From Methanosalsum natronophilum (GTDB taxonomy: Archaea; Halobacteriota; Methanosarcinia; Methanosarcinales; Methanosarcinaceae), in NCBI RefSeq assembly GCF_024808815.1, contig NZ_JANUCS010000001.1:186001-250000 (forward strand): a stretch of 64,000 nt of DNA. Direction: 5' to 3'. A program made the position numbers and the translations under genes. Every line of letters begins with the position of its first letter. The stretch's first letter is position 1. Below, in pieces: positions 7,136 through 22,110 of this stretch. Below the pieces are notes generated by a model. The model saw nothing but the letters and a program-made list of their open reading frames with translations, was not told where the DNA came from and made no database searches.

Positions 7136-7942
7136 TTAAACCTTTTCCATTAAATAGTAATAAGCTATTTTAGATCTCCATTTAGCAGGTAAAATGCTTA
7201 AAACCGAATTAATTATAGCAAAACCCCTACCTGGAATTATTATTTCATTTCCTTTTTTAATCCCATTATAAGTTTGCTCTACAACTGAATTAACATCAAG
7301 AGTTAACCAAGAGTTGAAACTGTGTGTATTCTTCATACACGCCTTGATTTCAAAGTTAGTTCCACTCACTGCAGATGGACATACTACAGTCATTTTTACA
7401 TTTGAGCCAATTTCCTTAAGCTCATAAGAAACTGCACGACTAAATTGGAGAATAAAACTTTTACTTGCACCATACGTTGCCATTAAAGGATTTGGCTGAA
7501 AAGCAGTGATTGAAGAAAAGTTTATGATATAGCCATAGTCTTGTTTAAGCATGTCTTTAAGAAAAAGACGCGTTAACTCATAGACACTGCATATATGTAA
7601 GTATAGCATATTCAACTCAATATCTTTATCAATATCTTTTAAAAAGCCATAGGTACCAAATCCTGCACAGTTTATTAAAACATTTACTTTAAGGTTGTTC
7701 TCCTTAGTATATTTGTAAACTTCTAATGCTGATCCTTTTTTGGATAAATCCATTTCCAATGTATGGATCTTAGTGTTCACACCTTCATTTACCAACAACC
7801 TATATGCAGTATCTAATTCTTCCCTTGAAATTGATACCAGCAAAATATCATGACCTTCATATGCATATTTTCTAGCAAGCCCAAACCCAATTCCTTGTGA
7901 GCCACCTGTGATTAATATAGTACCTGAGTCAAACTTCCCCAT
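7136..7942 (-). CDS. short-chain dehydrogenase/reductase
   Basis: This 268-residue classical SDR has the NAD(P) loop TGGSQGIGFG at about residues 13-22, the NCAGFG motif, a catalytic serine in NFSSITAF and the YGASK catalytic Tyr-Lys pair. The C-terminal part fits the family that acts on hydrophobic ketones or ketoacyl substrates, but the substrate cannot be read. It is the last gene of a four-gene minus-strand set (28 bp after the aldehyde dehydrogenase) and is convergent with the phasin-like gene, 9 bp apart. Confidence 0.87.
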   Translation of the reverse strand: MGKFDSGTILITGGSQGIGFGLARKYAYEGHDILLVSISREELDTAYRLLVNEGVNTKIHTLEMDLSKKGSALEVYKYTKENNLKVNVLINCAGFGTYGFLKDIDKDIELNMLYLHICSVYELTRLFLKDMLKQDYGYIINFSSITAFQPNPLMATYGASKSFILQFSRAVSYELKEIGSNVKMTVVCPSAVSGTNFEIKACMKNTHSFNSWLTLDVNSVVEQTYNGIKKGNEIIIPGRGFAIINSVLSILPAKWRSKIAYYYLMEKV

Positions 7943-7970
7943 CTGCTTTACCTACATAGTATTTGTATGT

Positions 7971-9380
7971 TCAAGAAAACCATTTATGTATTTCTTTAAG
8001 TTTCTCAAGTTTTTTTTCAGAATATGGAGGATATATCAAATTCAAATTTCCCCACTTCCTGTGGATAATACTCCTCTGATTAGAAAATTCAACAAATCCA
8101 TGGAATCCAAAAGATTTACCTATACCACTATTGTTTACACCACCAAATGGTAAATTTGGATTACTATACCCCAACATATAATCATTGATTACAGATCCCC
8201 CGGCAGTAGTGTGGTTTATTAAATAGTTAATATTCTTTTTATCTTTACTTGCAATATACATGGTAAGTGGTTTTGGTCTTCTAGAAACAATATCACAGGC
8301 TTCTGAGGTTGATGAATATTTAATAACAGGAAGAATTGGCCCGAATATCTCATCGTTCATAATTTCCATATCTTCTGCAACGTTATCTAATATTGTGGGA
8401 GAAATATACAAGGAAGATTCATCAAACTCTCCTCCATAAACTACATGTGCTCCTTTTTCTAAAGCATCATTAAACATTGATTCAAGTCTCTTGAAATGTT
8501 TTTCATTGATTATTCTACCATAATCTGATGACATCTTGATATTTTCTTGGGCAGAATAGAGTTTTTCTATTGAATATATCATATTTTCCAGAAAATCATT
8601 ATATACTACATCTTTTAAGATCAGGTAATCGGGGGCAATACATGATTGACCAGTGTTTATGAATTTTGCCCATGTGCATTTCTCAGAAATCCCAGAGAGG
8701 TCCGCTGTTTCGTCAATTATGGAAGGGGATTTGCCACCAAGTTCCAATGTTACACTTGACAAGTTCTTTGCCGCTTCTGACATCACAATTTTGCCTATTT
8801 GAGGGCTACCTGTGAAAAATATATGGTCAAATGGTTTGCTCAGAAGCTCCTGTGCAATATTAGACCCTCCCTCCACAACAGCAACCTCCTTTTCATCAAA
8901 CAGGTCAGTAATCATTTTTTTAATAAATCTTGACGTGCTAGATGAAATTTCACTAGGTTTTAGAACAATTGAATTTCCTGCAGAAAGAGCATATATAAGA
9001 GGAACTATACTCAAATTTAGCGGATAGTTCCAAGGAGATATTATTAATGTTATTCCTTTCGGCTCATAATGAATATAGGATTTGGTTCCAAGTAAAGACA
9101 ATGGCCTAGATACTTTTTCAGGCTTCATCCATTTCTTAAGATTTTTTTTTACAAATGATAAATGTGCATGTATGATACCTGTTTCACTAATCAAAATCTC
9201 AGCTTTAGGTTTTTTTAGATCCGTATACATTGCATGGTAGAGTTGATCTAAATTTTTTTCATTGTTTAGATAATTCTCAATTAGTTCAAGTTTTTGTATC
9301 CTTTGCCCAGAATCAGAATTCTTTATATTATTCTGATTTTCTTTTTGCTGATTAAATAAAGCATCTATATCATTGGCCAT
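7971..9380 (-). CDS. aldehyde dehydrogenase family protein
   Basis: This 469-residue NAD(P)-dependent aldehyde dehydrogenase has the PWNYPL cofactor loop, the FTGSPQIGK Rossmann motif, the general-base glutamate in LELGGKSP and the catalytic cysteine in NTGQSCIAPDY. Length, the short N-terminus and the PFGGVNNSGIG motif resemble class 3 fatty/aromatic aldehyde dehydrogenases. Such enzymes are uncommon in methanogens. It sits between an SDR and a membrane protein in one apparent operon, so a hydrophobic aldehyde substrate is a fair inference, not a demonstrated one. Confidence 0.9.
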   Translation of the reverse strand: MANDIDALFNQQKENQNNIKNSDSGQRIQKLELIENYLNNEKNLDQLYHAMYTDLKKPKAEILISETGIIHAHLSFVKKNLKKWMKPEKVSRPLSLLGTKSYIHYEPKGITLIISPWNYPLNLSIVPLIYALSAGNSIVLKPSEISSSTSRFIKKMITDLFDEKEVAVVEGGSNIAQELLSKPFDHIFFTGSPQIGKIVMSEAAKNLSSVTLELGGKSPSIIDETADLSGISEKCTWAKFINTGQSCIAPDYLILKDVVYNDFLENMIYSIEKLYSAQENIKMSSDYGRIINEKHFKRLESMFNDALEKGAHVVYGGEFDESSLYISPTILDNVAEDMEIMNDEIFGPILPVIKYSSTSEACDIVSRRPKPLTMYIASKDKKNINYLINHTTAGGSVINDYMLGYSNPNLPFGGVNNSGIGKSFGFHGFVEFSNQRSIIHRKWGNLNLIYPPYSEKKLEKLKEIHKWFS

Positions 9381-9417
9381 AATACTTTACCACATATTAA
9401 TAATAGTTAATTATTCG

Positions 9418-10239
9418 TCATACGGCTACAAATCCAAGCATTGAAAAGATGTAGAAAATCGATAAGCTAATTGCTGCAAAGGCTTCGATTTTCCCCCAAT
9501 CCTTCTTATGTTTGAATAGGTCATTTAATGTCAAGCATATCCACAACAAAAATATATATCCTGCCATAAGCGAAAAGAAGGAAAACTCAGGGTGATACCA
9601 AGTACCTATAGTTTCTCCCGAAAACTCTGTTAAAACTGTGAAGAAACCTACAAAAGCAACCAATCTATATCCTCTAATTGATTTAAATAGAAGTACTGCA
9701 AGACCAAATTTAGCTATTATTGGAAGTAGGTTGGCTGATAGATCAAAATATAAATAATCTACGAGTATCAGTAATAAGAAAGCAATCAATATAACAAAAT
9801 TAGTTTGATTGAACCAATGTCTATTAGAGTAATTTTCTTCGAATGTCCTCCATAAATTATAGGATGACCAGAATATTGCACCATAGCCTGGAAGTATCCA
9901 GATAGGAACACCACCAATTACTCCACCTAAATATATAAAATACTCAAAATGAACCCCTATAAGTTCATGTATATAACCAAATACTGATGCGATAAAGAGA
10001 AAGAGCTTACCCCTAAACTCACTGTTTTTCCAGAAAATAAACCAGATTATAGACAAGTAAAGGAAAGGAATTATTTCGATCTCAGTTAGTTCATAAAAAA
10101 ATAACACACCATAGATAGACAAGAGCATGAACACTGTAAAATACAAGAAATTGTTTATTACAATTTTACTTTTCTTATCTATTTGACCAATGAGTGAATG
10201 AATCAGTGTATCAATATTTGTCATGCTCCCTAATAGCAC
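9418..10239 (-). CDS. polytopic membrane protein of unknown function
   Basis: This 273-residue protein has about seven to eight hydrophobic segments, with few charged loops. The conserved-looking stretch ELIGVHFEYFIYLGGVIGGV followed by PIWILPGYG recalls membrane enzymes of the carotenoid hydratase (CruF/DUF422) type, where acidic and aromatic residues face the membrane, but the match is only by eye. The GTG start at 10239 is preceded by AAAGGA with 5-base spacing; an internal ATG at 10224 has its SD too close. It lies 37 bp upstream of the aldehyde dehydrogenase and 57 bp downstream of the flavin reductase. Confidence 0.6.
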   Translation of the reverse strand: MLLGSMTNIDTLIHSLIGQIDKKSKIVINNFLYFTVFMLLSIYGVLFFYELTEIEIIPFLYLSIIWFIFWKNSEFRGKLFLFIASVFGYIHELIGVHFEYFIYLGGVIGGVPIWILPGYGAIFWSSYNLWRTFEENYSNRHWFNQTNFVILIAFLLLILVDYLYFDLSANLLPIIAKFGLAVLLFKSIRGYRLVAFVGFFTVLTEFSGETIGTWYHPEFSFFSLMAGYIFLLWICLTLNDLFKHKKDWGKIEAFAAISLSIFYIFSMLGFVAV

Positions 10240-10296
10240 ATTTATCCTTTTATAATCTTTTCATTTTCATCTTTAGTTGTACAGGTACAATAATTG

Positions 10297-12465
10297 TCAT
10301 ATATTCCTTGCAATTTCATTTGCCGAACTTACAGCTCCCCATACTAAACCAATTTCTTTAGCATCACCAACTTGGTATATCTCACGTGCAGCCTGAGCAT
10401 TTTTCAACTCCTGATACAAACCATCATCAGGTACTCCAGTAGTTGCAAAAATAACATAATCGACATCAAAATTCAAATGTTCGACTTTTTCCGGATTTAA
10501 CTTTTTCTCAAAAGGATTATTCACATTTTCAGGAATTAATGACATCCAAGGAATATAGGGGTCCTTGCGATCTTTATTAGAAAATATATAGACTTGATTC
10601 TCTGAAAAACCAATGATTTTTGAAGCAGTATATGCCTTTACTGCTTGATCTAAACTATCCTTTTTATTTCCATTAGTTGAACCTTTTCCCATGAGCAACC
10701 ATAACATCTGGTTGCGATTAGCCATAGTTGTATTTGGCATTAAATTCTTGTTTTTACTAACTATTGTTACATTATAAGACTTGTTTTTTGCTACTATGTA
10801 AGCAAGTTCGCATCCTACATTACCACCCCCAACAATAAGTATATTTTTTTTATTAGGTGGTACTTTCATACCATTTGAAATGAATTGTCTTGCACCAATG
10901 TGATCGATCTTATCAAGGCCATTTATGTGAGGGATGTTTTCTTTTAAACCGTTACAGCAAATAATCACATCGAATTGATCCTTTATATCACCTAATGTTG
11001 CTTCTTTATTGAATACAAGGGTCAAACCTTGCTCATTGGCTCGCTCAATTTTATGATTAATATTATCCAAGTACCTCTTAAGGTCATGCTTCATCTCCAT
11101 CTTACTACCTAAATATAGTTGACCACCAATTACAGAGCTTTTTTCGAAAAGTGTTACATTGTGGCTTCTTTTGTGTGCTGTGAGTGCAGCTTCACAGCCC
11201 GCTGGGCCTGCGCCAACAATACATACCCTTTTTTTAATTTCAGCGTTCTTTATTTCCTTAACATCTTCAAAGCCCATATATGGATTCACAGAACAACAGG
11301 GATGTCCTCCTTTCTTAAAAGATTCGATGCAACCTTCATTATCGCCTATACAATGAATTATGTCTTTAACATCACCTGTTTTTACTTTATTAGGCCAATA
11401 TGGATCAGCTAACAAAGGACGGCCCAGCATAATAAAATCTGCCCAATTTTTATTTAATACATATGAAGCAACTTCAGGTTTTCCAAGTTTACCTACTGCA
11501 ACAACAGGTACATTAATACCTTCCGAAACAAAAAATTGCTTTAATCTACCCGCAATTTCTTCCACATAAACTGCATCATCGAAATAAGAGGGTAAATGTG
11601 GCCAAAACCAATTTTCATAACATCCTTTATCAACATCAAACGCATCCACCCCAGCTTCATTTAAAGCCTTACAAAATTGTAAACCTTCCTCTATACTTCT
11701 TTCTTTACCTTTAAAAATATCTTTGAATATACTTTCACCGTACGTTTCCCTTATAGCTTGTGTCAAGTCTAATCGATAAATTATAGGAAAGTCAGTGCCA
11801 CACCTACTTTTAATCTCTTTAACTACATCTAATGCAAATCTGAATTTATCCTTATATCGACCAAATATTCTTCTATTCCATGGATTTGATGTTAACTGAT
11901 CCATCAAATAACCTTCATGTCCATGTAGTTGAACCCCATCAAAACCTGAGATCTTTGCATTAATAGCACACTGCCCAAAACTCTTCACTATTTTCTTAAT
12001 ATCTCGATTAGATAATGGTAAATGAGGAACTTGAGGAACGTAAAAATTCCTATTCCAAGATGCAGATTTTAATAGTTTACCTTTCAAAGCTGGTTCTGGT
12101 GAGCCAACGCGACCAAGACCTGCTGATAATTGTATAAATATCTTGGATCCATATGGTCTCACACTCGATGTAAGATCTTGCCAACCACTAAGTCTGGTTC
12201 GTGAAGTACCATCAATTCTTGGAAAATATGTCGTGTTATTATCTTCTAAGAGTGTTGGATCCACTCCATAAGATACAGGAACCAAACCAGTAATTAGTAG
12301 CCCACAACCACCTTTTGCTCTTTCCCTAAAAAATTCAATCATTTTATTTGTAGGACGGCCATTGGAATCCACCATATTAATATTGCCAATAGGCGCCATG
12401 ATTATTCTATTATTTAGTTTACAACTACCAATCTGGCCTGATTCAAACAGGTTATCAAATTCCAT
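10297..12465 (-). CDS. old-yellow-enzyme / 2,4-dienoyl-CoA reductase family flavoprotein
   Basis: This 722-residue enzyme has an N-terminal FMN TIM barrel (1 to about 360; HGHEGYLMDQLTSNPWNRR is diagnostic), a [4Fe-4S] linker, then FAD and NAD(P) domains (VCIVGAGPAGCEAA, ILIVGGGNVGCELA) and a C-terminal YQVGDAKE motif. Family members reduce enoate or enal double bonds with NAD(P)H. The Fe-S motif is unusual: C372-I-G-D375-N-E-G-C379 and C391, with Asp where the family has the second Cys. It is the first gene of the four-gene operon. No substrate can be assigned. Confidence 0.88.
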   Translation of the reverse strand: MEFDNLFESGQIGSCKLNNRIIMAPIGNINMVDSNGRPTNKMIEFFRERAKGGCGLLITGLVPVSYGVDPTLLEDNNTTYFPRIDGTSRTRLSGWQDLTSSVRPYGSKIFIQLSAGLGRVGSPEPALKGKLLKSASWNRNFYVPQVPHLPLSNRDIKKIVKSFGQCAINAKISGFDGVQLHGHEGYLMDQLTSNPWNRRIFGRYKDKFRFALDVVKEIKSRCGTDFPIIYRLDLTQAIRETYGESIFKDIFKGKERSIEEGLQFCKALNEAGVDAFDVDKGCYENWFWPHLPSYFDDAVYVEEIAGRLKQFFVSEGINVPVVAVGKLGKPEVASYVLNKNWADFIMLGRPLLADPYWPNKVKTGDVKDIIHCIGDNEGCIESFKKGGHPCCSVNPYMGFEDVKEIKNAEIKKRVCIVGAGPAGCEAALTAHKRSHNVTLFEKSSVIGGQLYLGSKMEMKHDLKRYLDNINHKIERANEQGLTLVFNKEATLGDIKDQFDVIICCNGLKENIPHINGLDKIDHIGARQFISNGMKVPPNKKNILIVGGGNVGCELAYIVAKNKSYNVTIVSKNKNLMPNTTMANRNQMLWLLMGKGSTNGNKKDSLDQAVKAYTASKIIGFSENQVYIFSNKDRKDPYIPWMSLIPENVNNPFEKKLNPEKVEHLNFDVDYVIFATTGVPDDGLYQELKNAQAAREIYQVGDAKEIGLVWGAVSSANEIARNI

Positions 12466-12675
12466 CTATCTAACCTTCTCTTAATATTAAAGATGCTTAA
12501 TTTTACAGAACAAAACATTGATTTAACTATTGTTTTATAGATTTTATCATTTAAGAAATAAATTTGAGGATATTCTAATCATACAAATCCGTATACTTTT
12601 TTATTTTTTATAACTAGGTTAAAATAACATGTATGGTTCAAAAGGTTTAAGTAGGCTATAAGCTTATTTTTACAC

Positions 12676-12990
12676 ATGTCAGAGAGAGATGAACGTTACA
12701 ACAGTGAACTAAAAAGGCGAGGCGTACCAAAAGATCTATTTGATGCTAGTAGGCAAGTAACCTGTCCTGAATGTGGACAATCATTTAACCTATTCTACTC
12801 AAGAGCTAAACTCTGCACAGGATGTATCCATGCAGTTAATGGATGTGAATTTGCGCGTTGTATTCGATGTGATACTGAGTTCCCATTAACGGATTTCATG
12901 AACAAAGCAAAGTCTAGGAGAACTTCAACTTACTTAGAGTCTTTAATAAACAACTATCATAATACATTTGGTGAACGGCCTGGTAGGTAA
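12676..12990 (+). CDS. zinc-ribbon protein of unknown function
   Basis: The 104-residue protein carries four cysteine pairs or near-pairs: CPECG (35-39), CTGC, a lone Cys in NGCEF and CIRC. This suggests two zinc knuckles. Flanks are basic (SERDERYNSELKRRGVPK and KAKSRRTS), which would suit nucleic-acid or ribosome contact. It stands alone between divergent and co-directional genes and I do not recognise the family. The start ATG at 12676 has no clear SD and lies about 25 bases from an AT-rich stretch, so the mRNA may be leaderless. Confidence 0.6.
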   Translation: MSERDERYNSELKRRGVPKDLFDASRQVTCPECGQSFNLFYSRAKLCTGCIHAVNGCEFARCIRCDTEFPLTDFMNKAKSRRTSTYLESLINNYHNTFGERPGR

Positions 12991-13141
12991 AAAGCCTCAA
13001 TAAATATAACATCAGATTTAGTCAAAAACTACGTTGTAATTAAATTAGCTCATAATGTGTTTGTTATTTTCAGTATGACATGAAATATACCTGAAAATTA
13101 TTTGATAAATAAGTAATCAACCAATTAGCTGAGATTAGAAA

Positions 13142-14788
13142 ATGAAAACCTCACAATTTAATGATGAAACGGATATCATTGTTAATAGTAGCCCAGCTGT
13201 AATTTTTTTATGGGAGGCTAAAGATAATTGGCCCGTAGAATTCGTTTCTGACAATATCCTTCAATTTGGCTATGAAAAAGAGGAATTTATAGAAGGTAAA
13301 CTGAAATATGGGGACATTGTTCATCCAGATGACCTGCCTAGGTTGAAAAAACAACTTAATCGGTATTGTAGCGAGAATACATATAAAGGTTTTACTCAGG
13401 AATACCGTATTATCACAAAATTTGGTGAAACACGTTGGGTTGACGAACGTACTCTTATAAGAAAAGACAGTAATGGTAAAATAACACACTTCCAAGGAAT
13501 CATCCTTGACATAACTGAAAGAAAAAAGCATGAGGAAGAGCTACTTTTAAATGAGAATAGATTAGAAACACTTCTCAAGCTTAACAAGATGACCGGTTAT
13601 AGTGTGAGTGAGATAATTGATTTTTCCTTAGAAGAAGGTATAAAACTCACTAAAAGTAAAATCGGATACATTGCATTTTTAAATTCTTCCGAAACTGTTC
13701 TCACAATGCATGCTTGGTCTAAAAAAGCAATGTCAGAATGTGGAGTTAATACTAAGCAAAGATTATATGATGTAGAGAATACTGGTTTGTGGGGAGATGC
13801 TATAAGACGGCGAAAGCCCATTATCACAAACGATTACGAGGCATGCGAAACAAGAAAGGGTTACCCAGAAGGGCATGTATCAATTAAAAGACATATGAAC
13901 GTCCCAATATTCGATGGATCAAAAATAGTTGCTTTGGTAGGTGTGGGAAATAAAGAAGAAGATTATGATACAAATGATGTTCGTCATTTGAGACTCTTAA
14001 TTGAAGGTATGTGGAAAATAATTCAGAGAAAAGAACTTGAAGATTCACTTATGATTTTCTCTAAAGATTTTGAGAAGGCTAACAATGAATTAAAGTCTAT
14101 TCAGAGTATAAAAAAGGAGTTATTCGATTCGATTGGTTCTTCACAAATAAGTGACCGACATACATCAATCTTTGATCATGAAGCTATAAATTCGATAAAT
14201 GAACAGCAAAGCCAAGTAATGCAAGATTTGATAAGAAGCTCAGAAAAATTGAAAAGTATTATTGATTCAATGGTATATATGAGTGCTGAGAGTGCTGGAA
14301 AGATCACTTATTATATGACTTACGAGAACCCTGAAGAACTTATCAATGATGCTGTACTAAACATTATACTAAACATCGATGAAAAAAATATAACTATTGA
14401 ACAGTATATCCCTAAAAATATTTCTAAGTTGAGGGTTGATAAAGAAAAGTTTACTGATGCTTTAACAAGAATAATTTTTAGCTCAATTCATTTTACACCA
14501 ATCGCAGGGAATATAGATATTAAAGTTTCAGAATATGGGAATTATGTATACTTTGAGGTCAAAGATAATGGTGTAGGTATACCTGAACCACTTGCATCTA
14601 GTTTATTCATGCGATTTCACCAATTCAATGACATTGTATTTGACACCTCGTGGTATGAAGTCTATGAAGAATTGAAATCTAATTATTATATAGCTAAAAA
14701 TATCATTGAAGCACATAAAGGTAAAATTTGGGTTGAAAGCAATAAAGGAAAAGGAACCTTGGTCAAAATAAAACTTCCTAAATTTTAA
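13142..14788 (+). CDS. PAS-GAF sensor with degenerate histidine-kinase domain (MsmS-like)
   Basis: The 548-residue soluble sensor has a PAS/PAC domain (about 10-130, ending FQGIILDITERKKHEE), a GAF domain (about 150-300, with the methanogen-typical ITNDYEA and KGYPEGHV motifs) and a C-terminal kinase-like module. The module lacks the phospho-acceptor HExxxP box, has serines where the N-box asparagine should be (IIFSSIHFTP), keeps G1 as DNGVGIP near residue 475, and has lost the glycine-rich G2 box. Catalysis is therefore doubtful. In Methanosarcina, MsmS, a heme-bearing PAS-GAF protein, sits beside an Msr regulator; the same arrangement is seen here, 53 bp upstream of an Msr gene. Confidence 0.85.
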   Translation: MKTSQFNDETDIIVNSSPAVIFLWEAKDNWPVEFVSDNILQFGYEKEEFIEGKLKYGDIVHPDDLPRLKKQLNRYCSENTYKGFTQEYRIITKFGETRWVDERTLIRKDSNGKITHFQGIILDITERKKHEEELLLNENRLETLLKLNKMTGYSVSEIIDFSLEEGIKLTKSKIGYIAFLNSSETVLTMHAWSKKAMSECGVNTKQRLYDVENTGLWGDAIRRRKPIITNDYEACETRKGYPEGHVSIKRHMNVPIFDGSKIVALVGVGNKEEDYDTNDVRHLRLLIEGMWKIIQRKELEDSLMIFSKDFEKANNELKSIQSIKKELFDSIGSSQISDRHTSIFDHEAINSINEQQSQVMQDLIRSSEKLKSIIDSMVYMSAESAGKITYYMTYENPEELINDAVLNIILNIDEKNITIEQYIPKNISKLRVDKEKFTDALTRIIFSSIHFTPIAGNIDIKVSEYGNYVYFEVKDNGVGIPEPLASSLFMRFHQFNDIVFDTSWYEVYEELKSNYYIAKNIIEAHKGKIWVESNKGKGTLVKIKLPKF

Positions 14789-14841
14789 GTTGACTAAGAG
14801 AAATAATTTATATATCTATCACACATAAAGGATTAGCTAAT

Positions 14842-15624
14842 ATGAAAACTGAACTAATAGGCACAGTGTTTCTTTCTGAAAAAAGAAAGGCCATTCTTTT
14901 GATGTTAATGGATGGACCCACTACAGTAGATGAAATTAAAAAATGTCTTACTGGTACCTCTAGTGCAATTATGACTCAAATCAAAATACTTCTCGAACAG
15001 GGCTTGATAGAGAACGAAGATTATGAGTATAGGTTAAGTTATATTGGCGAGATTATAGTAAAGAAGATGAAGCCATTAATCAAAACTCTAAATGTCTTAG
15101 AAGAACATAAGGATTTTTGGCAAAATAGAGACTTAGGACCAATACCTGAACATCTACTTGATAGGATTGGAGAGTTAGGTGATGTTATAGTTTATGAACC
15201 CGACCTTAACCACTTGTTCGAGCCACCACAAGAGCTATTAACCAGTTTATATCAATCACAAAATGTTAGTACATTATACTCATACTTTTGCCCATCCTGC
15301 CCTAAAAATTATTCCGAGTTAGCAAAAAAAGAAACAAATTTCGAGCTTATATTAACAAAACCCGTATATGAGCGTCTAGAAGAAGAGTATACAGAAGAAC
15401 ATAATGCTATGATCGAGAATGAAAACTCAAATATCTATATTTGTGATGATACTGCAATAAAACTTGGTGCTCTTTCTGTTACAGACGATATGATGCTAAT
15501 TGCTTTTTTCAATAAAGATGGTGTTTTTGACCATAAAAAAGTTATGAGCTTTGATGAAAGTGCAAGACTTTGGGGCCAAGAACTCTTTAACTACTATAAA
15601 GAGCGAGCAACACCGGTCAAGTAA
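14842..15624 (+). CDS. Msr-type transcriptional regulator (wHTH plus FilR1/DUF1724 domain)
   Basis: The 260-residue protein has an N-terminal ArsR-like winged helix (about 1-75; KRKAILLMLMDGPTTVDEIK, then a recognition helix TGTSSAIMTQIKILLEQGLI) and a C-terminal DUF1724/FilR1 domain (about 110-250, with PEHLLDRIGELGD and the terminal MSFDESARLWGQELFNYYK). This architecture is that of the Msr regulators that activate or repress methyltransferase operons in Methanosarcina. It follows the sensor gene by 53 bp, with its own TTTATATATC box, and precedes the corrinoid gene. The 76-bp element shared by the two methyltransferase promoters is its natural candidate target. Confidence 0.88.
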   Translation: MKTELIGTVFLSEKRKAILLMLMDGPTTVDEIKKCLTGTSSAIMTQIKILLEQGLIENEDYEYRLSYIGEIIVKKMKPLIKTLNVLEEHKDFWQNRDLGPIPEHLLDRIGELGDVIVYEPDLNHLFEPPQELLTSLYQSQNVSTLYSYFCPSCPKNYSELAKKETNFELILTKPVYERLEEEYTEEHNAMIENENSNIYICDDTAIKLGALSVTDDMMLIAFFNKDGVFDHKKVMSFDESARLWGQELFNYYKERATPVK

Positions 15625-15806
15625 AACAACTTTATAACTTTAATTCTTGCATTGTTTTTTCTTTTTAAATAATAGTTGAAGAATGAGTATTTAGATTTAT
15701 CCTTGATATTATCAATGAGATTGATTTATTTTACGTTATGGTTTTACTGTCTTATCTAGATAATAATTATGTTAAGAAACAACCATTCATTGTTGATAAT
15801 ATAAAT

Positions 15807-15882
15807 AACTTTGACCAATTACCACAAGTTATTATATATATCTCTAACCAGATATTGATTAACAGTCAATGAATACAAATTA
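15807..15882 (+). promoter_or_regulatory. promoter/operator P1 of the corrinoid protein gene
   Basis: A 76-bp block here matches, without gaps, 66 of 76 bases of the block upstream of the UroD methyltransferase operon (21694-21769, minus strand). The 5' part, AACTTTGACCAATT and then RCCAYAAG, is the likely activator site; TTATTATATATATCTC (15829-15844) contains the TATA box. A start about 25 bases downstream would leave a 5' leader near 140 nt before the ATG at 16005. Weaker similarity continues about 20 bp further, through TATTTGTT. Confidence 0.8.
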
Positions 15883-16004
15883 TGTATTTGTTATATTGAC
15901 AAAAATAACAACAGAATACTGAACAGATTGTTGAGAATGGTTAGAATTTGATTTCAATCCATTCCTTACAAGATTATACTAAAAATAAATTCTGGAGGAA
16001 AATT

Positions 16005-16670
16005 ATGGACGAAAAAGAAATACTCAGTGGTCTCACAGACGCAGTAGTAAACGGTAAAAAAGATCAAGCAACAGAGCTGTCTGAAAAAGCACTGGAAGCT
16101 GGAATTGACCCATATAAAGCAATTGTAAATGGTCTAGCTAATGGTATGGAAATTATGAGCCAAAAGTATGAGGATGGAGAAGTCTTTATGCCACACCTTT
16201 TAATGTCATCCAATGCCATGTATGCAGGAATGGATGTACTTACACCTCATCTAAAAATGGAAGGTGCTGAAAAAGCTGCTGTTTTGGTAATTGGTACCGC
16301 TGAGGGAGACGTCCACGATATTGGAAAGAACTTAGTTAAAACAATGATGTCAGCTGTCGGTTTCGATGTTATTGATCTTGGTAAAGATGTGCCTGTTCCT
16401 GAATTTGCTGATGCTGTTGAGAAAAACAAAGCAGATGTAGTTTCAATAAGCACATTGATGACATCAACCATGGATAACATGGAAAATACTGTTAAAGATA
16501 TTGCAAGCAAAGGTCTTAGAGATAAAGTAAAAATAGTTGTTGGTGGTGCCCCTGTCACTGAAGCTTTCGCTAAAGATATTGGAGCAGATGAATATAAAGC
16601 TGATGCTATGGGAGCTGCTAAGTGGGCAAAAGAAGCAGTTAAAGAACTTGATTCCTCCAGATGGGGATGA
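16005..16670 (+). CDS. corrinoid methyl-carrier protein (MtaC/MtbC/MttC family)
   Basis: This 221-residue protein has the four-helix cap domain (about 1-90) and the B12-binding domain with D102-V-H104-D-I-G107, in which the histidine is the lower cobalt ligand, followed by SISTLMTST and VVGGAPVTEAFA. It carries a methyl group from a substrate methyltransferase to a CoM methylase. Sequence alone does not tell which methylated substrate. The ATG at 16005 follows TGGAGGAAAATT, so an upstream in-frame start at 15948 is rejected. It is monocistronic, shares its promoter with the UroD-type operon on the other strand, and ends at a strong terminator. Confidence 0.92.
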   Translation: MDEKEILSGLTDAVVNGKKDQATELSEKALEAGIDPYKAIVNGLANGMEIMSQKYEDGEVFMPHLLMSSNAMYAGMDVLTPHLKMEGAEKAAVLVIGTAEGDVHDIGKNLVKTMMSAVGFDVIDLGKDVPVPEFADAVEKNKADVVSISTLMTSTMDNMENTVKDIASKGLRDKVKIVVGGAPVTEAFAKDIGADEYKADAMGAAKWAKEAVKELDSSRWG

Positions 16671-16687
16671 ATTAGTTTAAATAAAGT

Positions 16688-16732
16688 AGAATATATTAAA
16701 AAGTAATATATTCTGCTATCTTTTTTTTTTAT
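16688..16732 (+). terminator. hairpin plus T-tract terminator after the corrinoid gene
   Basis: A perfect 11-bp stem (AGAATATATTA at 16688-16698 and its complement at 16704-16714) with a 5-nt loop is followed by a run of T residues starting at 16721. It lies 18 bp past the stop codon. The rest of the 397-bp gap to 17068 holds nothing I can identify. Confidence 0.75.
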
Positions 16733-17067
16733 TTTAGAAATTTGGATGTTTTTGTACTATTTTTTTAAACTTAATTTAGTTATTATTTGACTATTGTTTA
16801 GCCAGCTAAAGTTGTATTTAGTTTTTGTAGAAGATATTCAAAAATTAATACTGACAGTATCTTAACCTGATTGATTTTGTAACTTTGCATTGCTTAAAAA
16901 AGTAAAGAGCTATCCAAATATACGAAGCATATTATTGAAGGTTGAGCTTAACAATATCATAAAATATGAAATTAATTGTTCAGGCTGTTTATACTTGCCT
17001 GATAAATTAATCAAACTAGATATTATTATTGAGCCTACTCTCAGAATATTGGAATAACTAAAAAATA

Positions 17068-18219
17068 TTAGTTTTCCATTCTTCTAACATTTTTAATCCT
17101 TTGATCTAATGTAGTTCCACAATCACATGGTTCATCTAGCAGAACACCTAAATCTTTGGTGCGATACCTTACAAGTGGCATACATCTTCTATTAAGTGTA
17201 GTAAACACGAGCTCACCTTCTGATCCCTCTGGAAGTACTTGTCCAGTATCTGGATCTACAACTTCTACTAAGAAGTCAGGATTATTTACATGCATTCCAT
17301 TTTGTTCTGTACACTCAATAGCATTAGCTAGCCCAAGTTCAGTCATACCCCACTGTCTTACTGCTGTACAACCCCATGCATCTTCGATAACTTCTTTCAT
17401 TTCCTCGGTTAATGGCTCAGATGAACAAATTATATTCTTTATTCCAAGGCTTCTCAGTTTATCCAGATTTGAAGCTGATTTGGAAAGGTCATATATAAAA
17501 GAAGATTTTCCTATAATAAAAGTAGTTCCTGAATTGACCATTGTATTAATCTGGTCATTTATATCAGAAGAGTCATTAATCACAGACTTGAAGCCTGCTA
17601 GATCACATGCTTTGCTAAGAACTAATCCTGGATCCCATGTAGCTGTTAGAGTAGGGTACATTATTTGAAGCATATCTTTTTCAGAATCCATTCCCGCCAT
17701 TTTTAGTCCAGATATAACTGAATCAACAATATCTAGCAATTCATCCTGTGTATAAGAAATTCGCTTTTTCAAGTCAGCTGTTTCAGTAGTTGTAGTTCCT
17801 GAAGTAGTAAATTCTCTTGCTATTTCTCTCCTAGATACACACAAAAAGTGATATGGATTCTGTATTAGTTGTTCATGTGTCGTCAAAGGAACCTTAGATA
17901 TGTCGGACATGCTCTTAATATTAGTTGACTTTATCCCTTCTTTTTCAAATAGTTCTTGATAATAAGGACTGTTTTTTGACACATAATCTAATAATTGTTT
18001 GAATTTATAAAGTTTATACTCTTTTATATCATCTCTTTTCAGGCCATAATCCTTTCCAAGATAACTCAGTTCTTCATTTGCAGCTATCTCTTTCTTGATT
18101 TTGAGCAAACCCCACATTTCTAGCGGGTTGCCTTTAGAAGAGTCAATATCCCTTGATTTTAGTTTTCTTTTAGCTACATTTAATTTAACAAAGTTACTAA
18201 TCCTTTCAGATAAACCCAT
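17068..18219 (-). CDS. phenylacetate-CoA ligase / F390 synthetase-like adenylate-forming enzyme, short form
   Basis: The 383-residue protein belongs to the AMP-forming PaaK/F390 synthetase family: TTSGTTTTETADLKKR phosphate loop, QWGMTELGLA adenine motif and VRYRTKDLG. The family normally continues for another 60-100 residues as a mobile C-terminal domain after a cluster such as CDCG; here the frame stops 16 residues after it, with nothing coding-like beyond. GGAGGT seven bases before the ATG at 18219 fixes the start. It is the last gene of the UroD-radical SAM operon, behind a 13-bp inverted repeat. Substrate unknown. Confidence 0.85.
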   Translation of the reverse strand: MGLSERISNFVKLNVAKRKLKSRDIDSSKGNPLEMWGLLKIKKEIAANEELSYLGKDYGLKRDDIKEYKLYKFKQLLDYVSKNSPYYQELFEKEGIKSTNIKSMSDISKVPLTTHEQLIQNPYHFLCVSRREIAREFTTSGTTTTETADLKKRISYTQDELLDIVDSVISGLKMAGMDSEKDMLQIMYPTLTATWDPGLVLSKACDLAGFKSVINDSSDINDQINTMVNSGTTFIIGKSSFIYDLSKSASNLDKLRSLGIKNIICSSEPLTEEMKEVIEDAWGCTAVRQWGMTELGLANAIECTEQNGMHVNNPDFLVEVVDPDTGQVLPEGSEGELVFTTLNRRCMPLVRYRTKDLGVLLDEPCDCGTTLDQRIKNVRRMEN

Positions 18220-18363
18220 AAGATATACCTCCAAATAAACTAACTAATTTTGAAATCAAATTTAACACGTTTTAAAAGTATACATTTACCTTTTTGGTAA
18301 TAAAAATAGCTCATGCTCAATTTCAGATTCTATAGATTCCACATCAAATTACAAAAAAGTAGA

Positions 18364-18414
18364 CTAAGAACAATGTTTTTATCTTTTGATTAGCAATAAA
18401 GACATTGTTCTTAG
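18364..18414 (-). repeat. 13-bp perfect inverted repeat inside the methyltransferase operon
   Basis: CTAAGAACAATGT (18364-18376) and its exact complement (18402-18414) are separated by 25 nt. The element lies 16 bp past the stop of the radical SAM gene and about 145 bp before the adenylate-forming enzyme. In the RNA it would form a stable hairpin, either a 3' end/processing signal or an attenuator that sets lower expression of the last gene. There is no long T-run directly after it on the minus strand. Confidence 0.65.
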
Positions 18415-18430
18415 TATTAATAAACCACTA

Positions 18431-19858
18431 TCATGTAGTAATTTGATCCCTATACAGGTATTCTCCATTGCAGCTACTTAGATTATAGTTGCAAAATGGT
18501 ACAAACTTTCCATCTTTTGTTACAACATGGATGCAACAGTTCTCAATTCTTCCTTTTTCATAGGACCACACGTCTTGGAAAGCCATTGTAGAAATAGTTA
18601 AGTATCTATTCTTGCTCATTTCAATAAATTCAGCCCATCCATTACTTTTCGTAGTAGACCTACAACAAGAACTCTCTTGTGGAACTGTAACAGTAGTTAA
18701 AGGTGTATTTCCGCAACATTTGTTGCTACCTACAGCCTCCGAATTGTCTTCGTTCTTACTAGATCCTTTCCATCTACCCATAATAGATTTCTTGGTCTTA
18801 CTTGCAACATCTGTAGAAGTATTTAATGACCCTTGTTCAATGTTAGTTAGAGGTAAGAACTCACCTTCACCTTCTACTAATGTCATACAAGTAGCACCAC
18901 ATTGTGCCGTTGCCATTAAGGCTGGAGTGAAGTGCTCTACTTTAAGTTGACCATTGGTCTGTTCTTCTATATTCTCAAGTAAATCTAAAATAGTTATTTT
19001 AGCTTCCTGGTCAGCAGGCGACCTGCCTGACAAGAAAACTGGTTGGAAGTGAACTCCTCGTACAGTAGGCACATTGTTGCTAGCAAATTTTATTATGTTA
19101 CCAACTTCATGGAGGTTATAATTATTAGCTACTAAGGGTACTAAGACTACACCAATACCTGCTGTTCTGCATTTATTGATTACTTCAGATTTGACTTCAA
19201 AAAGATTCTTCCCGGTACGTTTCATATAAACGTCATCTGAAACCCCATCAAAGCCAAGATAAAGTGCATCTATCCCAGCATCTATTATCCGATCAAAGTA
19301 TTCCTGATCCTGGGCAATCCTAACCCCATTAGTATTGAGTTCAATATGAGTCAATCCTAAGTCACGGCCCATTTTAATTATCTCTGGTAAATCTTCCCTT
19401 AAAGTAGGCTCACCACCAGATATCTGGACACATGTTGGATCATTTGAATAATATTTAACAGTCTCAAACATTTTCCTTATTGTTGCCATATCAGGATCTT
19501 TACTATCATCCATCAAAGAACTCGCAAAACAATAAGTGCACCCCATATCACACCTGTCAGTAACTTCTACCACTGCTAAACAAGTATCTTGTTTATGGGA
19601 AGGACACAAACCACAATCTAGTGGGCACCCTTTTTCAGTAACACCTAGATGATTTTTTGGGCTTGCTCGGTCAACTTCAAAAAAATTTTCCATTTGATGA
19701 TAATGATTCACATCTTTTGAGATAAGAGTTGTGAAGACGCCATGATCTTCACATTCCTTATCAATATATACCTTACCATCATCTGAAGCATACTTGACGC
19801 CACTGATATTCCTGAGACATTCAGGACACAAACTACTAATTTTTTCAATTTGTTCCAT
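18431..19858 (-). CDS. COG1964-type radical SAM protein (TrsS/Tes-like)
   Basis: The 475-residue protein has an N-terminal zinc ribbon (C11, C14, C36, H39), a second Cys cluster GCPLDCGLCPSH, and the radical SAM motif C103-x3-C107-x2-C110 (CDMGCTYC) followed by ISGGEPTLRED. The C-terminus holds an insert with two Cys pairs (NKCCGN, SSCCRS) and then NCCIHVV...FVPFCNYNL. This layout is shared by tetraether synthase and by the radical SAM (seleno)proteins called TrsS; the ending looks more like the latter from memory. GAGGG upstream supports the ATG at 19858. It lies 44 bp after the zinc-ribbon redox-like gene in the UroD operon. Confidence 0.85.
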   Translation of the reverse strand: MEQIEKISSLCPECLRNISGVKYASDDGKVYIDKECEDHGVFTTLISKDVNHYHQMENFFEVDRASPKNHLGVTEKGCPLDCGLCPSHKQDTCLAVVEVTDRCDMGCTYCFASSLMDDSKDPDMATIRKMFETVKYYSNDPTCVQISGGEPTLREDLPEIIKMGRDLGLTHIELNTNGVRIAQDQEYFDRIIDAGIDALYLGFDGVSDDVYMKRTGKNLFEVKSEVINKCRTAGIGVVLVPLVANNYNLHEVGNIIKFASNNVPTVRGVHFQPVFLSGRSPADQEAKITILDLLENIEEQTNGQLKVEHFTPALMATAQCGATCMTLVEGEGEFLPLTNIEQGSLNTSTDVASKTKKSIMGRWKGSSKNEDNSEAVGSNKCCGNTPLTTVTVPQESSCCRSTTKSNGWAEFIEMSKNRYLTISTMAFQDVWSYEKGRIENCCIHVVTKDGKFVPFCNYNLSSCNGEYLYRDQITT

Positions 19859-19902
19859 TATCACCCTCTGGAATATTACAATTACCTCAAGTTATACAAA
19901 TA

Positions 19903-20370
19903 TTATCCTCTTTTTTCCTCAAGGATACCTTCTGCACCTTTTATTGTTGGTACCATATCTTCTCCAAGATACATATCACCACATTTAGGGCAGACTATTG
20001 CATTACCTGGTCTTGTAACTCCAAGATAGGTCATGTCAACATTTGCTTCAATGGCATTCTCATTACATTTCTTACAAATCCAATCGGCTTCATCTGCAGC
20101 TTCAACGTTAAATTCTCCACCTGTTGGGCCCACCATTTTCATTTTATGAGCATATCCACTATCTAATGAAAATCCACCGTTTGAAGCAGAGTATAAAGCA
20201 TAGCATGTTAAATTATCATCTTCAGCTTTTGCAAGACATTTACTCCCATCTTTGGATTCAAGTTTTTTTCCGCTTTCCTCCGCATCTTTGATTACTTTCT
20301 CCATTTCTTCTGCTTTTAGACCATTGTCTTTCAATAAATTAGCAACTTCTTCGCTTATTTTGATATCCAT
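19903..20370 (-). CDS. two-part zinc-ribbon redox-like protein (DVU_1557-like C-terminus)
   Basis: From the ATG at 20370 (SD AAAGGTG, 6-base spacing) the product has 155 residues; upstream starts at 20415 or 20424 would add a repetitive segment and have weaker support. The N-terminal half (ISEEVANLLKDNGLKAEEMEKVI, then a Cys/Gly-rich part) is unknown. The C-terminal half reads WICKKC, DMTYLGVT, then VCPKCGDMYLGED, and ends EGILEEKRG. From memory this is close to small proteins next to TrsS and a CoA ligase in Desulfovibrio (DVU_1553-1557). It lies between the UroD and radical SAM genes. Confidence 0.7.
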   Translation of the reverse strand: MDIKISEEVANLLKDNGLKAEEMEKVIKDAEESGKKLESKDGSKCLAKAEDDNLTCYALYSASNGGFSLDSGYAHKMKMVGPTGGEFNVEAADEADWICKKCNENAIEANVDMTYLGVTRPGNAIVCPKCGDMYLGEDMVPTIKGAEGILEEKRG

Positions 20371-20470
20371 AGAGTACACCTTTGATATTTTTGATATTAA
20401 TTTTTTGATATCCATCAAGTCCACCGGCTTATTTTGATAGCTTTGACATCAATTTTCAAGTATCAAAACT

Positions 20471-21583
20471 TTAGAATTTTTCGTATTTACCATAGTCCTT
20501 TGCTGCTTTAACCATTGCATGTACGTTTGCAGGTGGAGCGTATGTTGGACATTCACATGAACTTCCAATAATAAATCCTCTTGGACTATCCTTACCTGCT
20601 TGCAGCTGTTCTGCAGTTTGATCATAGACCTGTCTAGGAGTACCACGATCAATTAGTTTGGTATCAACAACTCCAAAGCAAGTACATCTATCTCCAAAGT
20701 GTTCAACCAATTTGCTTGATGGGAAAACATTCTTTCCATCATTACCAACTTGTACAACAGTAAATGGTGACATAGGTGCATCTTTCCACATATCAAAACT
20801 GTTAGTGTGGTTTCCACAAAGGTGGTAATATATACCAGGTCCAGCACCGGCTTTAAGTACATTTTTTACTGCTTTGCATTGTGGTTCATAGCTGAATCTT
20901 TTGATCTGTTCTCTTTCTAAGAGATCACCACTGGCAACAACAGATCCTGTAATCATTACATTAGCACCGTACTTCTCAGCTGTTACCTTACATGCATTGA
21001 CCATATGTTCAGTTGCTTTGACTATAAGTTTGTCAACAATTTCTGGTTCAGTTATCATCCACATAAATACATCTTCAATACCTGCCCAGTTAGTTGCAAC
21101 TTCCATTGGTCCTGCAAGCTGTGTAATAGGTGCAAACATTTGTGGATATTCTTCTAGAACTGTATCCAGTGCTTTGAAGTGATCTTTGAATGTTGGTCCT
21201 TCTTTAAGTTCTTCAGGACTTTTTACCTCAAACTTATCAATATCTTCAGGTTCCTTTATAGGATATTTAGTAATTGCAGGTGGTGAAGTTTCCTGTATCT
21301 TAATCTCAGCACCATAGTCCTGTCCCCAGTAATCTGCCCACAGATAGTGACCTACCGGTGTGATATCATACAGTTCACAGGCCTGGCATACCATTCGTGC
21401 TGCTTCATCTGGGTTTTCCCAGAAATATTTTGGAGTTTTCTTGAATAAAGCAGCTGCATGAGACAATAAGATTGGGTCAACAATTACCCTTTCTGATGGT
21501 TTATCGACAAAAGGTGTTGTCCATAAGTTACCTGCTTTTTCTAACCATTCTGAATTTATTGGAGCAAAATCCTCTGCTGGCAT
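20471..21583 (-). CDS. UroD-family corrinoid methyltransferase (MtaA/MtbA/MtoB-like)
   Basis: This 370-residue uroporphyrinogen-decarboxylase-fold protein retains the zinc triad of methylcobalamin:CoM methyltransferases: H254-x-C256 (YYHLCGN) and a C-terminal cysteine at 343 or 345 (SSCEC). Members either methylate CoM (MtaA, MtbA) or demethylate O-methyl and related substrates (MtvB/MtoB type); sequence alone does not decide. The ATG at 21583 lies 8 bases after GGGTGA. It is the first gene of a four-gene operon under promoter P2, which duplicates the corrinoid gene's promoter, so the two proteins are probably partners. Confidence 0.9.
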
Positions 21584-21693
21584 ATTATTTATCACCCTTT
21601 TTATTTTTAATAATTAATGGTCAAGGATAGTAAAAGGCCATCCATAACCTCCAGTTTTCAATTAGTTTTTTCTAATCAATAAAAACAAATACT

Positions 21694-21769
21694 TAATTTG
21701 TAATTATTGACTGTAAACTAATATTTTGGTAGAGATATATATAATAACTTATGGCAATTGGTCAAAGTT
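21694..21769 (-). promoter_or_regulatory. promoter/operator P2 of the UroD-radical SAM operon
   Basis: Read on the minus strand from 21769 to 21694, this block begins AACTTTGACCAATT and includes TTATTATATATATCTC as TATA region. It aligns gap-free with P1 at 15807-15882, with ten substitutions, mostly downstream of the TATA box. Transcription would start near 21712-21722, giving a leader of about 130 nt before 21583. The remaining part of the 527-bp gap to 22111 is AT-rich and holds nothing else I can name except the promoter of the next gene. Confidence 0.8.
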
Positions 21770-22110
21770 GATTATATAATCAATAACATATCTTATCTCA
21801 ACACTGTAGTTTTTTTCTTAACCATATTTTTGATTAGACCTTTTTGTTATAGCTACATGGACAAATAAATCAAGGATATTGATCATATCAATGCTTCTAA
21901 TACCTTGATTTTCAAATTACTTTTTGATTCAGGAAAACATCAACGTTAATAGAATAAATTTTCCTAAAATAATATATAAGGTAAATATATTTAATCAGAA
22001 CCGTACTTTATGTTAGTAGCTGTGTGAAATATGCATAGGTAAAAAAAATTAGTTTATATCTATTATTGTTCAATTTTCGTCTATTTCAAACAATAAAGGA
22101 AGACCTTCTA

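Follow-up and report, generated by a model that had tools for sequence, protein, structure and literature searches.

In a 64,000-nt stretch of the 2.03-Mb genome of Methanosalsum natronophilum (family Methanosarcinaceae), hereafter the window, to which all coordinates refer, a gene island at ~7136–21583 contains two sets of genes that face each other. One set encodes a soluble corrinoid protein, a sensor kinase and a regulator, and the other encodes a UroD-superfamily methyltransferase (hereafter UroD), a zinc-ribbon redox protein (DUF7479), a TrsS-type radical SAM protein (TrsS) and an adenosine monophosphate (AMP)-forming ligase. The conclusion that these two sets form one co-inherited, co-regulated unit holds up well. 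That the island as a whole is one co-regulated corrinoid methyl-transfer pathway is a reading for which we regard the chances as evenly poised, and its substrate, as yet unassigned, is probably a methylated sulfur- or selenium-type compound, as judged from the zinc site of UroD.

Co-inheritance and co-regulation of the facing gene sets

The seven genes on which the initial annotation was built, namely a sensor, an Msr-type regulator and a corrinoid protein gene facing genes for UroD, a DVU_1557-like protein, a radical SAM protein and a ligase, are all present as complete open frames with profile matches. Likely starts were set by the starts of orthologues (corrinoid 16005, UroD 21583, DUF7479 20370, TrsS 19858, ligase 18219); a TTG start at 15948 gives an upstream extension of the corrinoid frame. 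The genes and upstream elements in question are as follows:

13142–14788, plus strand: PAS-GAF sensor histidine kinase (Pfam PAS_3, GAF_2, HATPase_c)
14842–15624, plus strand: FilR1/Msr-type regulator (Pfam FilR1_middle, 127.8 bits)
15790–15892, plus strand: upstream element copy 1, before the corrinoid gene (103 nt, 85% match to copy 2)
16005–16670, plus strand: corrinoid protein, 221 aa, predicted methyl carrier (B12-binding 94.4 bits, B12-binding_2 75.9 bits)
17068–18219, minus strand: DVU_1553-type AMP-forming ligase (NF045666, 270.2 bits; cut-off 300)
18431–19858, minus strand: radical SAM protein of the TrsS type (Cys form), a relative of Tes (NF045646, 473.6 bits; cut-off 490)
19903–20370, minus strand: zinc-ribbon redox protein of the DUF7479/DVU_1557 type, extended by an N-terminal domain (Pfam DUF7479, 59.7 bits)
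20471–21583, minus strand: UroD-superfamily methyltransferase, 370 aa, with a His-Cys-Cys zinc site (Pfam URO-D, 131.7 bits)
21684–21786, minus strand: upstream element copy 2, before the UroD operon (repeat match to 15790–15892)

We sought orthologues of UroD by scanning 84,980 species genomes and in further relatives; the scan found them in Methanolobus, Methanohalophilus sp. RSK and one Methanosarcinaceae metagenome-assembled genome, and the further relatives yielded more. We read 23 loci, representing 20 distinct genomes of Methanolobus, Methanohalophilus and relatives (three genomes were read twice). Every one of them keeps the order UroD–DUF7479–TrsS–ligase without a break, UroD being the first gene of the operon throughout, and the neighbourhood comparison by which the initial annotation had proposed to check its reading thus finds the radical SAM and ligase genes together with the methyltransferase genes in 23/23 loci. 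Of 61 Methanosarcinaceae genomes, ten carry a UroD orthologue (at E 1e-200 or better), and the identical ten carry an orthologue of the soluble corrinoid protein (61–100% identity), so that both genes are present in 10 genomes and neither in 51 (Fisher p 1.1e-11, a value that ignores kinship). The distance from UroD to the corrinoid gene is ~4–20 kb in all 10. Since presence of the two genes is patchy inside several genera, it does not simply follow clade membership, and a chance neighbourhood is ruled out by the 23/23 gene order together with the UroD/corrinoid agreement in 61/61 genomes.

The two gene sets also have an upstream region in common. A repeat search found the regions before the corrinoid gene and before UroD to be 85% identical over 103 nt, with both copies oriented alike relative to their genes. 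A region common to the two genes is present in 10/10 genomes (66–251 nt; local score 46–350 against a shuffle maximum of at most 36), and in every one of these genomes the corrinoid gene ranks first among all island genes as a match to the UroD upstream region. In the host genome, a third strong match was not found; a third, weak one (C25:10144) lies near an unrelated gene for a PKD-domain surface protein. The aligned regions retain a TTGATATTATCAA-like palindrome, a ATTGATAATA block and a AGTTATTATATATA stretch, the last of which looks like an archaeal TATA region and may act as such. Further, in 22 of the 23 loci a gene for a FilR1-type regulator lies beside at least one of the two operons. 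The earlier claim that the two modules are one system is thus borne out by gene order, by the agreement between UroD and the corrinoid protein and by the common upstream element. Scans with sigma-70-type promoter and terminator models, which are inapplicable to archaeal promoters, gave no excess over shuffles. Within the genome of the nearest relative (G001, locus L058), the UroD and corrinoid upstream regions are identical at 221/247 positions, suggesting recent homogenisation by gene conversion.

The proposed linkage of the two modules stands for the Methanosarcinaceae, but a UroD–corrinoid pair can also occur where the radical SAM module is absent. In G077, a genome from a different class, a distant relative of UroD (286 bits) that retains the zinc site directly adjoins a corrinoid gene (L169/L170, G077:C1, joined stretch 18311–20194), and no genes for TrsS, the ligase or DUF7479 were found near the pair. 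The methyl-transfer pair is thus present there in a minimal form. We conclude that UroD probably has the corrinoid protein as its natural partner and that the TrsS module seems to have been added in the Methanosarcinaceae.

Affiliation of the proteins and comparison with known systems

UroD can be ruled out as MtaA or MtbA. It scores 87 bits against the MtaA/CmuA model (cut-off 235) and 64.7 and 53.5 bits against the NCBIfam models of MtaA and MtbA (cut-offs 400 and 600, respectively), and it forms its own clade apart from both (Shimodaira–Hasegawa-like approximate likelihood-ratio test, SH-aLRT, 100), contrary to the placement inside MtaA or MtbA that the initial annotation had named as refuting its reading. 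Other UroD proteins in relatives are at most ~32% identical to it over the matched part, and no close homologue was found in the Methanosarcina-like genomes searched. Its placement relative to the MtsA/fusion clade depends on long deep branches, in a tree that held one fusion UroD domain and no verified MtsA.

The residues H258, C260 and C347 (374-aa numbering) are invariant in 22 aligned proteins, MtaA, MtbA and the fusion protein have them as well, and both Cys zinc ligands are retained in every UroD orthologue. His-Cys-Cys ligands mark S/Se methyltransferases, whereas O-demethylases replace one or both Cys residues (PMC10418091). UroD therefore has the ligand set of the S/Se-type zinc methyltransferases of its superfamily, which indicates S- or Se-methyl chemistry rather than O-demethylation, and the presence of both Cys ligands rules out an MtoB-like O-demethylase. 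The initial annotation had suggested that UroD may be the demethylase itself, as in O-demethylase systems; the comparison with O-demethylases has to be dropped, but UroD is the likeliest candidate for the substrate methyltransferase (a putative MT1), because nothing of the MttB/MtmB/MtaB type was recognised in the island.

The corrinoid protein falls just below the cut-off of TIGR02370 (213.8 against 215.3 bits). Its clade (SH-aLRT 98) has as its sister group (98) the corrinoid domains found in corrinoid–UroD fusion proteins of 600 to 660 aa, and the other soluble corrinoid proteins of the host genome fall outside this grouping. Such a fusion architecture has been reported for MtsD/F/H (PMC10762971, PMC7374477), and from the architecture and this literature we infer that the fusion proteins in our tree are MtsD/F/H, which would make the corrinoid protein a sister of the Mts fusions. 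A review names METHO_RS01750 as MtsF of M. hollandica (PMC7374477); its gene number suggests that it may be situated within or close to an island of the present type (G015).

TrsS scores just under the cut-off of its model and 373.8 bits against the Tes model. The clade to which it belongs scores 464–484 bits, with a gap to the values of at most 394 for Tes-type proteins, and within the phylum it is confined to Methanosarcinaceae in our sample. TrsS matches the structure of the tetraether lipid synthase Tes (7TOL) nearly over its full length (E 1.9e-98, 465 positions), and the alignment extends beyond the radical SAM core to the N-terminal ribbon and to Cys motifs, which are conserved. Unlike Tes, TrsS carries an additional CC-rich insert. 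The Cys residues of TrsS are conserved. Its neighbours are the DVU_1553- and DVU_1557-type partners by which TrsS proteins are recognised. A search of plasmids for TrsS returned Tes-like matches only, with at most 32% identity. The ligase matches PaaK structures (~440 aa) over their first ~326 residues only, and as the C-terminal domain of PaaK is missing, full coenzyme A (CoA) ligation is uncertain. In the DUF7479 protein, an N-terminal part that resembles the C-terminus of NF045663 (43.7 bits, under the cut-off) is joined to a DVU_1557 domain; its AlphaFold model (predicted local distance difference test, pLDDT, 77) gave no significant fold match in the PDB.

Several known systems resemble parts of the island. 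The Mts system of Methanosarcina (MtsA/MtsB, MtsD/F/H; methyl-sulfide:coenzyme M) also combines a UroD-type methyltransferase having the His-Cys-Cys site with a corrinoid protein and an Msr-type regulator, the corrinoid domains of its presumed fusion proteins are the sister group described above, and MtsA has a mass of 41 kDa (PMC7374477), compared with ~42 kDa, by length, for UroD of the island. However, UroD appears to belong to a separate clade, with no more than ~32% identity to any other UroD protein found in relatives, and Mts sets lack the radical SAM protein, the redox protein and the ligase. The mtpCAP-msrH genes for methylmercaptopropionate in M. acetivorans (PMC7374477) likewise include a corrinoid protein, a methyltransferase and an Msr regulator, and transporters are found in some of the islands, but the mtp set has neither a radical SAM protein nor a ligase. 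Type 1 mlp clusters, for which S/Se methyl chemistry has been proposed (Kountz and Balskus, PMC10418091), share the His-Cys-Cys UroD-family proteins, the corrinoid protein and the RamA-type activase. They are defined by at least two Mlps, a corrinoid protein and Ram encoded in one direction within 2 kb, whereas the island in the window has a single UroD of a different clade, no Ram, genes in opposite directions, and TrsS and the ligase in addition; it is therefore not a type 1 mlp cluster.

The Trs/DVU_155x neighbourhood has the TrsS, DVU_1553 ligase and DVU_1557 redox protein types side by side, as the island does, and its MduS-like methyltransferase and DUF5714/MbdU-like proteins recur in island relatives; the three types have names in NCBIfam, and PMC13188914 lists TrsS and MduS after Haft and Tolstoy (2025). 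The island forms differ in being archaeal and all-Cys, in scoring below the cut-offs, and in being joined to a UroD/corrinoid system and to MtbA/RamA. The SAO system, recognised by SaoL and selenoprotein Sao components, was also set aside and is retained below only as a rival: only a Sao-like transporter below the cut-offs occurs in relatives, and no Sao-type gene was found in the island of the window. Taken together, the parts of the island belong by sequence to known superfamilies, while the island itself is distinct from type 1 mlp clusters, from MtaA/MtbA and from O-demethylases, and our literature search found no account of a methyl-transfer pair under common control with proteins of the TrsS, DVU_1553 and DVU_1557 types.

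A candidate pathway and its alternatives

The islands of relatives carry further genes that bear on function. MtbA (methylcobamide:coenzyme M methyltransferase; 627.8 bits, cut-off 600) is encoded between the membrane protein and corrinoid genes in five loci, and the corrinoid activase RamA (756 bits, cut-off 500) in three island loci, while the host genome encodes MtbA and three RamA proteins over the cut-off outside the island. Across the window, the relatives' islands and the host genome, the whole parts list of methanogenic methylotrophy (MT1, corrinoid protein, MT2 and RamA) is found, with UroD as the putative MT1. The gene set first proposed was correct in what it listed but incomplete, as the kit also includes MtbA, RamA (in relatives), an aldehyde dehydrogenase (ALDH), a short-chain dehydrogenase (SDR) and an OYE-family oxidoreductase. 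Near the ligase gene, 9 loci encode an aquaporin, and 10 others a BioB-like radical SAM protein together with an SsuA-like ATP-binding cassette (ABC) transporter; the aquaporin and the SsuA-like importer never occur together in the loci read, which suggests that both may serve the same small substrate. This alternation was compared across L053, L049, L059, L060, L062 and L063 versus L048, L050–L052 and L054–L057.

We hypothesize that UroD would bind an S- (or Se-)methyl substrate, or a fragment of one, through its zinc and move the methyl group to Co(I) in the corrinoid protein (221 aa), from which MtbA, encoded in the island or elsewhere, would pass it to coenzyme M for methanogenesis, with RamA re-reducing the corrinoid. 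The SDR, ALDH, OYE, AMP-forming ligase, DUF7479 protein and TrsS might prepare or dispose of the carbon skeleton, possibly by oxidizing it to an acid, activating this by adenylation or with CoA, and then cleaving or rearranging the product by radical chemistry. The substrate might enter through the aquaporin in some species and the SsuA-like importer in others, and the FilR1/Msr regulator and the histidine kinase could turn on both operons together via the common upstream element. A more specific version, which we put forward tentatively and consider rather doubtful, is that the substrate belongs to a class new to methanogens, its methyl group being freed only if acyl-adenylation and radical SAM chemistry of the Tes type are coupled to a dedicated UroD/corrinoid pair.

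In saline sediments, methane is formed predominantly by methylotrophic methanogens, and the list of their substrates is incomplete. Methanolobus degrades dimethyl sulfide without mtsA, mtsB or mtsF, and new methyl-sulfide methyltransferases may exist (Tsola et al., PMC10762971). The island is a concrete co-regulated candidate, by its genes alone, for the missing methyl-sulfur methyltransferase in Methanolobus, Methanohalophilus and relatives. If the radical-SAM-dependent version is true, it would be the first route of methylotrophic methanogenesis to depend on a radical SAM enzyme, and this gap in Methanolobus may be filled by it. In addition, the TrsS/DVU_1553/DVU_1557 set gains a biochemical partner, the corrinoid methyl-transfer pair, making its function directly testable.

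Several points weigh against a catabolic methyl-transfer pathway. The co-occurrence counts ignore relatedness, although presence is patchy in at least four genera; of the loci read, just 5 have MtbA in the island and just 3 have RamA; and no function has been assigned to the known relatives of TrsS and the ligase. The substrate, the direction of reaction and the reactions of TrsS and the ligase are what we infer here, and the flow of methyl groups is open to reversal, since the same kit could draw methyl out of methanogenesis for biosynthetic methylation. Moreover, kinship with Mts is no proof of an S-methyl substrate, because the Mts-type fusion family includes CmtA, which PMC7374477 mentions as implicated in carbon monoxide-dependent growth (Vepachedu and Ferry, 2012).

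The main rival explanation is that the island works in the biosynthetic direction, UroD and the corrinoid protein carrying methyl from the methanogenic pool to an acceptor and so replacing the S-adenosylmethionine (SAM)-dependent methyltransferase of the bacterial Trs set, while TrsS, the ligase and ALDH/SDR/OYE make a metabolite such as a modified lipid or cofactor. The chemistry of methyl transfer by corrinoids is reversible, and TrsS is closest to Tes, a lipid-joining enzyme; several loci (6 in all) add an MduS-like SAM methyltransferase (251 bits against the MduS model, under its cut-off), and the NCBIfam methyltransferase family DVU_1556 bears a name from the same DVU series. We nevertheless consider this rival unlikely, since the FilR1/Msr-type regulation, the MtbA and RamA of the islands, the Mts-type kinship of the corrinoid protein and the alternative transporters look catabolic.

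The remaining two explanations are weaker. One supposes that the island methylates or demethylates As, Se, Hg or similar, akin to the bacterial selenoprotein-rich SAO/MduS/MbdU neighbourhoods. It would account for the DUF5714 genes of 14 island loci, which match the MbdU model at 145–160 bits, for ABC transporter proteins that match the SaoX and SaoP models at 60 and 144 bits, for the MduS-like methyltransferase, for the CC pairs in the TrsS insert and for the aquaporin of some islands. However, all these scores are under the curated cut-offs, the binding protein scores higher with SsuA than with SaoX, nothing of the MerB/SaoL type was recognised, no role would be evident for ALDH, SDR and MtbA, and none of the metal-related genes is in the window's own island, all of which makes it improbable. 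The other, that a small Mts-like methyl-sulfide methyltransferase pair merely neighbours an unrelated, travelling TrsS pathway, agrees with the pair in G077 and with a membrane protein gene that also stands alone in Methanococcoides-like genomes, but is similarly improbable given that UroD leads the TrsS operon in 23/23 loci and shares its upstream region with the corrinoid gene.

Further island genes and minor observations

The island is larger than first described, having genes for OYE, a membrane protein, ALDH and SDR in addition, and a small Cys-rich protein is encoded between these and the histidine kinase:

7136–7942, minus strand: SDR (Pfam adh_short, 128 bits)
7971–9380, minus strand: ALDH, a conserved island neighbour (Pfam Aldedh, 314 bits)
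9418–10239, minus strand: "memb", a conserved multi-helix membrane protein
10297–12465, minus strand: OYE-family/pyridine-nucleotide oxidoreductase (Pfam Oxidored_FMN, 153 bits; Pyr_redox_2, 74 bits)
12676–12990, plus strand: open reading frame for a 104-aa Cys-rich protein, with no family match in profile searches

The best NCBIfam match of ALDH is an MdlD-like benzaldehyde dehydrogenase (364 bits, under the model's cut-off), and the memb–ALDH–SDR block is preserved in the islands of relatives. OYE is encoded close to the UroD or corrinoid gene in 11 islands, and the 104-aa protein is found in 11 island loci. Profile searches of Pfam and NCBIfam gave no match for memb, whose AlphaFold model is of low confidence (pLDDT 50). 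Its gene occurs in 12/61 Methanosarcinaceae genomes, comprising the 10 island genomes and two others, one of which (G002) is 72% complete, with a contig break inside the OYE gene. In Methanococcoides-like genomes (L151–L153), a second, stand-alone copy of memb adjoins a gene for a small zinc-ribbon-like protein.

The histidine kinase of the island is divided between two reading frames in four genomes (G004, G028, G211 and G297), and may therefore be a decaying or a two-gene form. Rfam gave no match in the window; a 20-nt inverted repeat (95%, 13-nt loop) at 18363–18415, between the TrsS and ligase genes, could form an RNA hairpin.

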